Assembly (NCBI GenBank): GCA_022706825.1 | Contig: JAKJBU010000001.1 | Coordinates: 1 to 64,000 of the forward strand | Length of the DNA: 64,000 nt | Source: Bacillota bacterium | Lineage (GTDB): Bacteria; Bacillota; Clostridia; Lutisporales; Lutisporaceae | Reading direction: 5' to 3' | Shown: positions 20,517 through 48,030 of the stretch, piece by piece | Layout of the letters: each line of letters opens with the position of its first letter | Position numbering within the stretch: position 1 is the stretch's first letter | Program-made: the position numbers and the translations under genes | The notes under the pieces: model-generated | The model's database searches: none | What the model was told of the DNA's origin: nothing | What the model saw: the letters and a program-made list of their open reading frames with translations, nothing else

Positions 20517-20570
20517 TTTTACACCTCCTCATGGTAAAGCTTAAATCTCTCTTATGGATAAGGCCTTCAT

Positions 20571-20680
20571 AAAATCAAAAGACCTCTCCGTAGACATAGA
20601 GAGGTCATAATATCTTTATGACAAACCTCGGCAGGAATTTACGGCCTGAGCCAACCTACTGTCTACGGTATATATTCGTT
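20571..20680 (-). ncRNA. Ribosomal protein L10 leader with terminator
   Basis: Between rplA and rplJ the minus strand reads CGTAGACAGTAGG, then TTCCTGCCGAGGT, the two conserved strands of the L10 leader that mimics the 23S rRNA binding site of L10. Directly after comes the 8-bp hairpin GACCTCTC / GAGAGGTC (20606-20581) followed by TTTTGATTTT, an intrinsic terminator. Binding of L10(L12)4 is expected to favour termination. Confidence 0.88.
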
Positions 20681-20693
20681 TCAAACACGGGCA

Positions 20694-26008: not shown

Positions 26009-26860
26009 ATGGCAAAGAAAAAATCAATCAACGACTTCTATGAAATGAAGAAGACGGGGGAAAAAGTTTCATGGATTACCGCCTACGATTTTCCGATGGC
26101 CTCATTTGCTGAACAGGCCGGCATGGACATGATACTTGTGGGTGACTCTTTAGGTATGGTTGTATTGGGATATCAAGGTACAGTTCCGGTTACAATGGAC
26201 GATTGCATATCTCACTGCCAGGCTGTCAGAAGAGGTGCTCCGAATACTTTTGCAATAGGTGATATGCCCTTTGGTTCATATCAGGTATCTGATGAAGAAG
26301 CAGTAAGAAACGCATGCAGATTCCTGAAGGAAGCCGATATGGATGCCATAAAGCTTGAAGGCGGAATTCGTGTACTAAGCAGGATTAAAGCAATCTCTGA
26401 CGCAGGAATCGTTGTATTCGGGCATATAGGCTTAACACCTCAAAGCTCAGGACAGTTGGGAGGATTCAAAGCACAGGGAAGAACAGTTGACAGTGCAAGA
26501 GAATTGATTAAGGATGCCCTCGCAATTCAGGAAGCGGGAGCAAGAGCACTGCTTCTGGAAGCAGTTCCTCCGGAATTGACAGAATACTTAAGCCATAAAT
26601 TGACTATCCCGGTATATTCCATTGGTGCAGGACTTCCCTGCGACGGCCAGTTAATAATATGCGGGGATATGCTGGGCCTTTTCCAGGCCTTCACTCCAAA
26701 ATTCGTCAAAAAATATGCAAATGTAGCTGAAGTTATTATTAATGCATTCAAAGAATACGTGGCAGATGTCAAAGAGGAAAAATTCCCCGAAGACAAGCAT
26801 GTATACCATGCAATAGACAGCAAGGAAGCCTTTGAAGCTTTATTCAAGGAATTTGAGTAA
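26009..26860 (+). CDS. panB: 3-methyl-2-oxobutanoate hydroxymethyltransferase
   Basis: PanB makes ketopantoate from 2-ketoisovalerate and methylene-tetrahydrofolate, the first pantothenate step. The 283-residue protein has the TIM-barrel motifs TAYDFPMASFAEQAGMDMIL, VGDSLGMVVLGY (metal-binding Asp), GDMPFGSY, KLEGG, and HIGLTPQS. ATG start behind AAGGAGG. No panC or panD is adjacent and the partner gene is an IclR regulator, which is not the usual pan operon. A related branched-keto-acid aldolase role cannot be excluded. Confidence 0.9.
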   Translation: MAKKKSINDFYEMKKTGEKVSWITAYDFPMASFAEQAGMDMILVGDSLGMVVLGYQGTVPVTMDDCISHCQAVRRGAPNTFAIGDMPFGSYQVSDEEAVRNACRFLKEADMDAIKLEGGIRVLSRIKAISDAGIVVFGHIGLTPQSSGQLGGFKAQGRTVDSARELIKDALAIQEAGARALLLEAVPPELTEYLSHKLTIPVYSIGAGLPCDGQLIICGDMLGLFQAFTPKFVKKYANVAEVIINAFKEYVADVKEEKFPEDKHVYHAIDSKEAFEALFKEFE

Positions 26861-26867
26861 ATAAACA

Positions 26868-26896
26868 TTGACATCTTGCAGATATTTACATAGAAT
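26868..26896 (+). promoter_or_regulatory. Promoter of the mutS2-like leader
   Basis: TTGACA (26868-26873), 17 bases, TAGAAT (26891-26896). It starts 7 bases after the panB stop and about 330 bases before the next start codon, leaving a long leader that is described separately. Confidence 0.85.
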
Positions 26897-26902
26897 AAAA
26901 TA

Positions 26903-27123
26903 TGAAAGTCGTAGAAATCAATAATTTGATAAACGCCGAAATTTAAAGTTCGAGGTATTTTATGTCTGAGAGTGTTCATAACTAGATAAATGAATCTAGC
27001 ATCGAAAGGGAATCCTATTAATTGCTTTGCGCATTAATAGGCTTGGTTAGTTGCCCTTTTGATATTATGAACACGGAACCAATTGTATATATTGTACAGT
27101 ACCGTGCTCTTGCACGGTTTTTT
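26903..27123 (+). ncRNA. Structured leader with riboswitch-like attenuator, class not recognised
   Basis: From the predicted start near 26903 the leader contains P1 (26972-26981 with 27065-27074, 10 bp), P2 (CTAGAT 26982-26987 with ATCTAG 26994-26999, 6-base loop) and P3 (27001-27010 with 27054-27063, 10 bp including one G-U). P3 is capped by P3b (CCTATTAAT with ATTAATAGG) and has an asymmetric internal loop at 27042-27053. The junction has only 0, 1 and 1 unpaired bases. A terminator follows at 27101. CACGGAAC (27072-27079) overlaps the 3' strand of P1 and can pair with GTACCGTG (27099-27106), the 5' half of the terminator, so P1 and antiterminator exclude each other. I see no T-box, SAM, TPP, purine or lysine signature. 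Confidence 0.6.
27101..27123 (+). terminator. Attenuator terminator in the mutS2-like leader
   Basis: A perfect 7-bp stem ACCGTGC / GCACGGT with loop TCTT, then six T. It sits within the leader, about 105 bases before the start codon, so it must be bypassed for expression of the gene. Confidence 0.85.
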
Positions 27124-27229
27124 CATATTTGGCGTTTATCTGCAGGATACGTATGACTGTACCGGATATAAAGGTTGTGATTGGACGTGGTCTGATTACG
27201 GCCTTTTCCCATTTAAGGAGGAATATAAA

Positions 27230-29182
27230 TTGAATTCAACAGCTATTAAAATTTTAGAATTTGATAAAATCAAGGAACTGCTGAAAACCTATACAGTATC
27301 CAATCTGGGAAAGGATTTGGCAGACAAGCTTGAACCATCTCTGAATACTGACACCATATTGTCGTGGATGAATGAAACTACCGAGGCTTGTGCCATATTG
27401 CAGAGGAGCGGCAGCGTGCCAATCCACAGCCTTAACGGTATAGAAAGTATTGTTGGCAAGTTAGGAAAGAATATGACTCTGCTTCCCGAAGAATTCGAAG
27501 TAATACTTGGATTGCTCCAGGAGGTGGGCAAACTTAAGCGGTTCATGGAGGATAAATCGGCAATAGCCCCTATAGTAAGCAGCTTTGCCTTGTCCGCCTA
27601 TGAGCTTGAGGAGTTGTCCGAGGAAATAGAAAGGTGCATTCAGAACGGAGCGGTTGCTGACAAGGCCAGCAGCGAGCTGTCCAGAGTAAGAAAGAAAATA
27701 ATAATACTTGAAGACAGGATAAAGGGCAAGCTTGAAAGTATTTTGAGATCCCCGGCCTATGCCAGGTATCTTCAGGACGGAATAATAAGTACCCGAAACG
27801 GCAGATATGTTATACCCGTTAAAAGAGAGTACCGTAAAAATGTAGACGGAGAAGTGATGGACAGTTCAGTCAGCGGGTCTACTGTCTTCATTGAGCCTTC
27901 GGAAGTAAGAAAGCTCCAGGATGAACTGAATCACTGCAGGATAGAGGAAGAAAAAGAAGTCTACAGGATATTGTCAATGCTCACAAATCTTGTAGAATCA
28001 TACAAAAAGGAAATAACAACCAATATACAGGTTATGTCATATTATGACTTCCTGTTCGCCAAGGGAAGGTTCAGCAGGTCTCTGGAAGCCAACCCTGTAA
28101 GCGTCAATACCTGCAGCAGGCTGGATATACGCGGAGCAAGGCACCCATTAATAGGAAAGTCAGCTGTGCCTCTGGATGTAAGCATTGGGGATTCATACAG
28201 GACATTGGTCATAACAGGCCCCAATACAGGAGGCAAAACTGTGGCTTTAAAAACTATAGGCCTGCTGACGCTTATGGTACAGTCGGGGCTCCATGTACCG
28301 GCAGATCCCGGGAGTGAATTTGCCGTCTTTACCGACATACTTGCCGATATCGGAGACGGCCAAAGCATTGAACAATCCTTAAGCACCTTCTCCTCCCACA
28401 TCAGAAATATAATAAGCATTGTAGAGTGCGCAGGCGGCAATACACTGGTCATATTGGATGAACTGGGGGCAGGCACCGACCCCGGAGAAGGCATGGGCCT
28501 TGCCATTGCAATTCTGGAAGAGGCATACAGGAAAGGTGCGGTCACAATTGCCACTACCCATTACAGCGAGATAAAGCACTACGCATATGAAAAGGACGGA
28601 TTTGAAAACGGCTGCATGGAATTTGACCTTGATACGCTGCAGCCCCTGTATAGATTGAAAATAGGAGAGCCGGGTGAAAGCAATGCTTTTCTTATTGCCT
28701 TAAGACTGGGAATGAAACGGGATATAATCGAAAGGGCCCATGAAATCACCTATAAGGAAAGGAAAGCTTACGATGAATTCATTTCCCCGGGCAGGATAAC
28801 CCAGGTCAAGAACACCGAGATGGTTCAAAAACACGCGGAACAGACAAATAAAAGCGTTAAACTGAAGGAGGATAAAAAGAATTATGAAAAAACCTCACGT
28901 CAAACCTCTTTTAAAATCGGTGATTGTGTGTATATAAGCACTATGGACCGCACCGGAATCGTGTGTGAGCAGGAGGACGGAAAAGGGAATCTCGGAGTCA
29001 TGGTGATGCACAAGAAGTTCATAATAAACAGAAAGAGGCTCTCCCTTTATATAGATTCAAAGGAGCTTTACCCGGAAGATTATGATTTTGATGTGATATT
29101 GGAGAGCAAGGATAACAGAAAGAAGAGAAAAGCAATGGGGAAAAGGCATATGGAAGGCATGACAATTGAAATAAAGGAATAA
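27230..29182 (+). CDS. MutS2-family ATPase lacking the Smr domain
   Basis: A 650-residue MutS2-like protein. The core and lever region are followed by the ABC-type ATPase: Walker A GPNTGGKT near 329-336, the Q/signature region SIEQSLSTFSSH, Walker B LVILDELGAGTDPGEG and the ATTHYSE switch. MutS2 proteins are usually near 780-790 residues and end with a Smr nuclease domain; here the C-terminus is a short basic stretch after a KOW-like segment (FKIGDCVYISTMDRTGIV). TTG start at 27230 behind AAGGAGG. Known MutS2 proteins act on collided ribosomes or recombination intermediates; which applies here is not visible. Confidence 0.88.
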   Translation: MNSTAIKILEFDKIKELLKTYTVSNLGKDLADKLEPSLNTDTILSWMNETTEACAILQRSGSVPIHSLNGIESIVGKLGKNMTLLPEEFEVILGLLQEVGKLKRFMEDKSAIAPIVSSFALSAYELEELSEEIERCIQNGAVADKASSELSRVRKKIIILEDRIKGKLESILRSPAYARYLQDGIISTRNGRYVIPVKREYRKNVDGEVMDSSVSGSTVFIEPSEVRKLQDELNHCRIEEEKEVYRILSMLTNLVESYKKEITTNIQVMSYYDFLFAKGRFSRSLEANPVSVNTCSRLDIRGARHPLIGKSAVPLDVSIGDSYRTLVITGPNTGGKTVALKTIGLLTLMVQSGLHVPADPGSEFAVFTDILADIGDGQSIEQSLSTFSSHIRNIISIVECAGGNTLVILDELGAGTDPGEGMGLAIAILEEAYRKGAVTIATTHYSEIKHYAYEKDGFENGCMEFDLDTLQPLYRLKIGEPGESNAFLIALRLGMKRDIIERAHEITYKERKAYDEFISPGRITQVKNTEMVQKHAEQTNKSVKLKEDKKNYEKTSRQTSFKIGDCVYISTMDRTGIVCEQEDGKGNLGVMVMHKKFIINRKRLSLYIDSKELYPEDYDFDVILESKDNRKKRKAMGKRHMEGMTIEIKE

Positions 29183-47859: not shown

Positions 47860-48030
47860 ATACACAACAAAAAAAACTGTCTCACGACGTTTTTTTTTCG
47901 CTAGGGAACCCTATGGTTCCCTTCGACGGATGCAGAATGCATCCTGAGCACCCTCCTTCCACGGCAGGTGGATTCTCCCCCTTGCATCCCCCCATTTTAT
48001 AGGAAAGTATCCTTTCCTATAAAATAAAAA
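47860..48030. other. Multi-hairpin intergenic segment
   Basis: Gene-free stretch with consecutive hairpins: GTC-TCAC-GAC flanked by A8 and T9 (about 47871-47898), AGGGAACC / GGTTCCCT (47903-47922), GGATGCA / TGCATCC (47928-47944), TCCAC / GTGGA (about 47958-47972) and a 13-bp stem TTTTATAGGAAAG / CTTTCCTATAAAA (47995-48024). The first resembles a bidirectional terminator with the same GTCTCACGAC core as that at 29188. A small RNA or mobile-element relic is possible. Confidence 0.45.

Follow-up and report, generated by a model that had tools for sequence, protein, structure and literature searches.

What does the leader of a MutS2-like gene sense, if it folds like a riboswitch and resembles none that is known? 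The question arises in a 64,000-nucleotide stretch of a Bacillota genome (contig JAKJBU010000001.1, positions 1 to 64,000), referred to here as the window, for which an earlier note had proposed a transcription attenuator in which closure of a basal stem, P1, goes with termination, with ligand sensing as an inference. The attenuator and the role of P1 in it are supported by our analysis. Ligand sensing is not, as P1 turned out to hold a conserved, translated-looking upstream open reading frame (uORF), which makes the ribosome the natural effector.

All elements of the leader lie on the forward (+) strand. As had been claimed, a sigma-A type promoter is present, TTGACA-N17-TAGAAT (26868–26896); it matches the consensus at 11 of 12 positions, and the same boxes are found at the equivalent place upstream in the leaders L003, L004, and L011. 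Minimum free energy (MFE) folding returns the three stems of the earlier note at the positions given there. P1, of 10 bp, joins GTGTTCATAA (26972–26981) to TTATGAACAC (27065–27074); P2 is a 6-bp hairpin (26982–26999, strands 26982–26987 and 26994–26999), and P3 is a long arm (about 27001–27063) with a mid-leader hairpin, followed by AGGCTTGGTTAGTTG (27039–27053), which corresponds to the AGGTTTATTTG tail that other leaders have. The last bases of the P1 3′ strand are common to the antiterminator, whose 5′ strand (27072–27079) does pair with 27099–27106 with one mismatch, and the proposed intrinsic terminator T1, CCGTGC/GCACGG with a T run (27101–27123), was found with its hairpin at 27101–27118. 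The leader region contains two terminator-like sites where 0.2 are expected, and the fold of 26903–27125 has an MFE of −64.9 kcal/mol (z = −5.3), a stability equaled in 0 of 200 shuffles.

Three further elements had been overlooked. A Shine–Dalgarno motif, GAGG (26952–26955), can be read 6 nt upstream of the ATG of a seven-codon uORF, ATGTCTGAGAGTGTTCATAACTAG (26962–26985), with the leader peptide MSESVHN-stop, of which L003 and L004 have an identical copy; a second terminator-like hairpin, T2 (27170–27206), with a T run that is weak in the window, lies directly before the gene, whose own Shine–Dalgarno sequence reads AAGGAGG (27215–27221). Thus, a short uORF with a Shine–Dalgarno motif stands upstream of the terminator, and it overlaps the anti-antiterminator of a covarying stem: the P1 5′ strand comprises bases 11–20 of the uORF, that is, its last codons.

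In agreement with the view that no known class is present, an Rfam scan of 26700–27400 returned nothing better than E = 0.84 (RF00512, Leu_leader). Rfam 15, used at the gathering threshold and at E up to 10, produced chance matches only on the window leader, with no match to the T-box (RF00230), and matched no family on the leader in eight canonical examples. The same scan detected a T-box elsewhere in L066, which shows that it works. Repeated regulatory codons, as in amino-acid attenuators of the trp or leu type, are absent from the leader peptide.

The gene behind the leader (27230–29182, also on the forward strand, TTG start) encodes a 650-residue ATPase with a MutS core, an ATPase domain, and a KOW-like C-terminus. 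It scores 654.7 bits against the MutS2 model TIGR01069 (cut-off 400), the match stopping at model position 523 of 790; no Smr domain was found at its C-terminus, and MutS_V is its sole Pfam match, which bears out its earlier description as a MutS2-like ATPase lacking the Smr domain. Residues 4–546 align with Bacillus subtilis MutS2 (E = 4e-132), to which the fold corresponds too (PDB 7QV3, 8QPP), and the C-terminus, a five-strand unit in the structural model, can be aligned by hhalign to the KOW stretch of full-length MutS2 (E = 3.8e-5, probability 71%). The window protein differs from B. subtilis MutS2 in having neither the long coiled coil nor the Smr domain. A protein search of the window's family yielded full-length MutS2 of about 793 residues as against Smr-less homologues of about 650 residues. 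The latter retain Walker A (GPNTGGKT), Walker B, and the signature residues, and one branch with support of 100/100 separates them from full-length MutS2.

In B. subtilis, MutS2 acts by splitting collided ribosomes, an activity that an ATPase mutation abolishes; mutating KOW or Smr changes erythromycin sensitivity only modestly, and the authors of that work considered that partial activity may persist without Smr (PMC10897456). Loss of mutS2 sensitizes B. subtilis to chloramphenicol, tetracycline, and erythromycin (PMC10897456). Given the ribosome splitting and the modest effect of Smr, it is plausible by analogy that the Smr-less form is a ribosome-rescue factor. The earlier note had found such an ATPase an unusual target for a regulatory leader; as a ribosome-splitting factor (PMC10897456), MutS2 is instead a typical target of uORF attenuators.

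Some observations on the genomes themselves may be added. The window's genome bin (G000, 1.8 Mb, 71% complete) contains no full-length mutS2 while its relatives have both forms, which is probably a matter of bin incompleteness. The record titled 'Calditrichales bacterium MX18-03' (L040) has a gene 66% identical to that of the window; the title looks wrong, and the genome (G014) was grouped in the window's own family. In G020, a partial second Smr-less MutS2 C-terminal tail (C151:18570-18701) lies 7 kb from the full gene.

With the tail at the C-terminus of the Smr-less proteins as query, we obtained 80 loci from named Clostridia and Bacilli genomes and compiled 79 leaders of Smr-less mutS2. 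In the leaders of the Smr-less genes from the window's family (L003, L004, L011, L013, L014, L015, L016, L017, and L025), a Shine–Dalgarno motif was always present, together with a short reading frame, 7 to 11 codons long, near a stem strand. Leaders were scored for a Shine–Dalgarno-like motif together with a uORF ending in V-[LHFQ]-[NIRS], at most one further residue being allowed. Such a pair is present in 66 of the 79 leaders, usually as M-[S/L/I]-x-x-V-L-N-stop, compared with a mean of 1.5 and a maximum of 4 of 79 for block-shuffled leaders; the same test on full-length mutS2 genes of the window's own family gave 0 of 17. From the start of the chosen uORFs to the gene, the median distance is 366 bases. 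Exactly seven codons were counted in 63 of 72 uORFs, and all 72 stop with TAA or TAG. Among the 63 seven-codon uORFs, 57 start with ATG, and Val, Leu, and Asn occupy codons 5, 6, and 7 in 58, 56, and 53 cases, respectively. The residues in the N-terminal part vary. Where codon 2 is Ser, it is written TCN in 20 cases and AGY in 13, and such use of both codon families, which is hard to explain unless the peptide is under selection, suggests that the amino acid itself is selected. The invariant codons double as a P1 strand, so that there a constraint from peptide arrest is not separable from one on the RNA.

Structural conservation was assessed with an alignment of 55 leaders (A3) built by MAFFT without structure. 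It lines up the uORF core GTTCTTAACTAA, the motif AATTnnATA just after the stop, the mid-leader AGGTTTATTTG, the P1 3′ strand TTAGTTAAGAACA, and the terminator CCGTGC-GCACGG-T run, and P1 and T1 are the only structures that RNAalifold predicts from it. Over these 55 leaders, 88.0% of the cells of P1 and T1 are paired, compared with 82.4% after shuffling, and the figure drops to at most 44% when the strands are slid by 1 to 3 columns. Double changes occur in 19 of 21 pairs, and the covariation score is 0.213 versus 0.115 for shuffled alignments, with 0 of 500 shuffles as high. In the window clade, for example, CTT has become CAT in the uORF, and the opposite P1 strand has changed from AAG to ATG. 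Gapless pairing judged against shuffles leader by leader did not separate P1 from chance; the comparative test alone did. Recurrent among the leaders are P1, the mid-leader hairpin with a AGGTTTATTTG-like tail, and the terminator. Covariation, which had been suggested as a check on all three stems, was found for P1 and T1; beyond the window, P2 can be seen only in its two close relatives, L003 and L004, and the same limit applies to the exact form of the three-way junction.

Two hairpins, T1 and T2, follow P1 in 56 of 68 leaders. In Clostridia, T2 often has a Shine–Dalgarno-like arm and a start codon in its loop; from the Shine–Dalgarno-like 5′ arm, a second uORF might be suspected to begin there. 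The clostridial loops also contain GTGTTC, which could pair with the P1 3′ strand; such pairing of the freed strand, a possible second use of it, scores 13.8, versus 11.5 in shuffles, over 59 leaders, but is not seen in the window.

Two side observations concern the sequences of the leaders. Columns 29–41 of A3, GTTCTTAAC, are nearly invariant, third codon positions included, despite the tolerance of P1 for compensated changes, which suggests an additional constraint beyond P1 pairing. In Thermoclostridium-type leaders (L041, L042, L045, and L046), the peptide is another one, ending in (Y/N)-L-A-stop, P1 is compensated, and the terminator is CCGTTC.

Whether covering the uORF would shift the fold was modelled for 68 leaders with transcripts ending before the T1 3′ arm and the uORF either masked or unmasked. 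On masking, the T1 5′ arm pairs more with the region of the P1 3′ strand, the mean going from 0.06 to 0.35; the antiterminator gains more than 0.2 in 33 of the 68 leaders and loses that much in none, and in the window it goes from 0.42 to 0.71. True T1 arms surpass shuffled arms (0.384 vs 0.217, Wilcoxon p = 5e-6, a value that serves only as a guide because the leaders are related and not independent). In these models, competition between antiterminator and terminator is thus supported for the cut-back transcripts but not for the complete window leader at equilibrium, where the terminator still wins even with the uORF masked; a switch would therefore have to act kinetically, during transcription. 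A decision made during transcription is normal for attenuators. In vmlR and msrD, NusG acts on a TTNTTT pause element (PMC9226507, PMC10314930), which the hairpin in the middle of the leader, with its TTTATTTG, resembles. An exact TTNTTT is missing from the tail in the window, where the P3-arm hairpin and AGGCTTGGTTAGTTG form a possible RNA polymerase pause element by analogy with vmlR (PMC9226507).

The distribution of the element was mapped by genome scans with a covariance model (R1), since searching 391 genomes of the class for the uORF by a DNA pattern had proved too strict and yielded a single copy, located upstream of a GNAT gene. With R1, the element was detected in 44 of the 46 genomes holding the Smr-less gene, in 125 of 150 genomes of a Paenibacillus family (that of L077), and, for a Clostridium family (that of L056), in 33 of 195; the window's own genome has one copy. 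Mostly, the element sits before Smr-less mutS2. Among 40 Paenibacillus leaders with inspected downstream genes, 31 precede Smr-less mutS2, 5 a homologue of BpsA_C-type branched-polyamine synthase, 2 an APH-family kinase, and 2 GNAT acetyltransferases, counts that are not frequencies because second copies per genome were chosen on purpose. Ten copies outside the Paenibacillus and Clostridium sets (eight extra copies) precede BpsA-type genes (6), GNAT genes (2), an S4-domain gene (1), and an ABC-F gene (1). In the Clostridium set, L250, L255, L257, and L259 stand before ABC-F proteins 56–64% identical to that of L168, which scores 460 against the NCBIfam cut-off of 380 for ribosomal-protection-like ABC-F; weak ABC-F matches at L249, L253, and L258 were left out of the counts. 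L240, also of this set, precedes a SAM-dependent methyltransferase-like protein, assigned from its motif. The leaders of these companion genes retain the uORF, the P1 strands, T1, and the AATTnnATA motif. Those before ABC-F genes keep the RNA core and are mostly read in another frame, with peptides of the FLTK/FLTR-stop type.

Taken with the companion genes of the ABC-F, GNAT, and APH-like kinds and an architecture like that of vmlR, msrD, and hflXr, which we count in its favor, the leader is very probably a ribosome-dependent transcription attenuator of the kind represented by those three systems, which control resistance and rescue genes. We count against this reading the equilibrium fold, the overlap of the invariant codons with P1, the other reading frame of the ABC-F uORFs, the BpsA companions, and the presence of T2 before the gene. 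Without stress, a ribosome would translate the seven-codon uORF and depart, or none would sit there; P1 would then close, the antiterminator strand would be hidden, and T1 would end transcription ahead of the mutS2-like gene. Were a ribosome to arrest on the uORF, its footprint would instead cover the P1 5′ strand, and the freed P1 3′ strand could pair with the T1 5′ arm, letting RNA polymerase read into the gene. We infer that such arrest would most likely be caused by a ribosome-targeting antibiotic or a similar stress on elongation or termination, the inducer probably being a translation-inhibiting antibiotic, and that the gene product would most likely be an ATPase that splits or rescues ribosomes and so relieves the arrest.

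The same attenuator might respond to slow or missing translation in general (starvation, slow termination, or collision), the peptide sequence being incidental. The ABC-F versions, which use a different frame over the same RNA, the variable N-terminal residues, and the action of MutS2 on collided ribosomes (PMC10897456) would all suit such a sensor. We nevertheless regard it as rather unlikely: V-L-N in 53–58 of the 63 seven-codon uORFs and the spelling of Ser2 suggest that the peptide matters, there is no run of one regulatory codon as amino-acid attenuators have, and the ABC-F, GNAT, and APH-like companions fit drugs.

The BpsA-type genes, for which an antibiotic link is not obvious, bring polyamines into consideration. 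In the eukaryotic AdoMetDC uORF, which encodes MAGDIS, a ribosome arrests at the stop codon when the polyamine level changes, and the present uORF could act likewise. BpsA_C homologues (E = 1e-41) are found behind the leader in five genera, Brevibacillus, Geosporobacter, Tissierella, Clostridium, and Paenibacillus (L161, L162, L163, L165, L166, L167, L196, L199, L203, L211, and L235). Yet speD is adjacent in just 1 of 11 inspected loci (L165, Tissierella, where it follows), and most copies of the element precede Smr-less mutS2 and others precede ABC-F, GNAT, or kinase genes, none of which make polyamines, so polyamine control seems very unlikely.

That the three-way junction binds a metabolite, which would stabilize P1 and cause termination, is a still fainter prospect, even though a stable structured leader, mutually exclusive terminator and antiterminator, and a covarying P1 would suit a riboswitch. 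The conserved sequence lies in the shared uORF/P1 strand and in the P1 3′ strand and not in the junction core, and neither P2 nor the junction geometry is kept beyond the closest relatives. The Shine–Dalgarno motif, start, length, and stop of the uORF are all conserved, and the downstream genes share no metabolite and fit ribosome stress or resistance, which, with the lack of an Rfam match, leaves little room for a ligand. Autoregulation, in which the MutS2-like protein would bind the leader and the uORF be incidental, suits a nucleic-acid- or ribosome-binding type of ATPase with a KOW-like end, but we give it almost no credence because the uORF is conserved and the same leader precedes unrelated genes, for which the MutS2-like product cannot be the common effector.

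The ribosome-dependent attenuator that we favor has close parallels among known systems. In the vmlR leader of B. subtilis, stalling of a ribosome on a uORF leads to read-through, and the order of parts is the same, with a uORF in the anti-antiterminator stem, a pause hairpin, an intrinsic terminator, and a last hairpin before the gene; the vmlR uORF, however, is the tripeptide MIN, arrested at initiation (PMC9226507), whereas the family of the window leader has seven codons ending in V-L-N-stop inside P1, another sequence, and another main target. The hflXr (rli80) leader of Listeria monocytogenes, for which induction by antibiotics has been demonstrated, is likewise a uORF attenuator before a ribosome-splitting factor, although its uORF has 14 residues with an RLR motif and the factor is the GTPase HflX rather than a MutS2-type ATPase (PMC6310831). 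The uORFC-6-1 motif before hflX in Bacillales is also a uORF attenuator upstream of a splitting factor (PMC8632094). With the msrD leader peptide MsrDL (MYLIFM-stop), the window leader shares a very short peptide and a terminator to be relieved; MsrDL arrests with the stop codon in the A site, with a preference for UAA, but there arrest by macrolides has been shown, the sequence is unrelated, and msrD encodes an ABC-F protein (PMC10314930).

In the open-access papers searched, we found no leader reported for MutS2 and no report of a Smr-less MutS2, and the main texts of two surveys of intergenic RNAs mention no mutS motif. The leader family and its MutS2-like target appear to be new, while the kind of attenuator is known; the leader belongs to a family of RNA switches that is widespread and, it seems, has not been described. 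An apparent orphan riboswitch thereby becomes a testable ribosome sensor, and a large group of uncharacterized MutS2-like proteins acquires a functional hypothesis, stress-induced ribosome rescue in parallel to HflXr. Other genes that stand behind the element may, through that association, be recognized as new candidates for resistance or ribosome protection, and its leader peptide offers new material for studies of nascent-chain arrest. A bolder, tentative reading, which we think somewhat more apt to fail than to hold, is that Smr-less MutS2 represents a new class of inducible factor for antibiotic resistance, one that splits ribosomes stalled by a drug, and that the leader is a portable drug sensor, in which M-x-x-x-V-L-N-stop arrests at termination, serving at least six unrelated gene families, including the branched-polyamine synthases. 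If true, Clostridia and Bacilli would have a translation-stress regulon that is as yet uncharted.

Elsewhere in the window, Rfam matched a Clostridiales-2 sRNA (47916–48000) and an L10 ribosomal leader (20566–20686), both on the reverse (−) strand.
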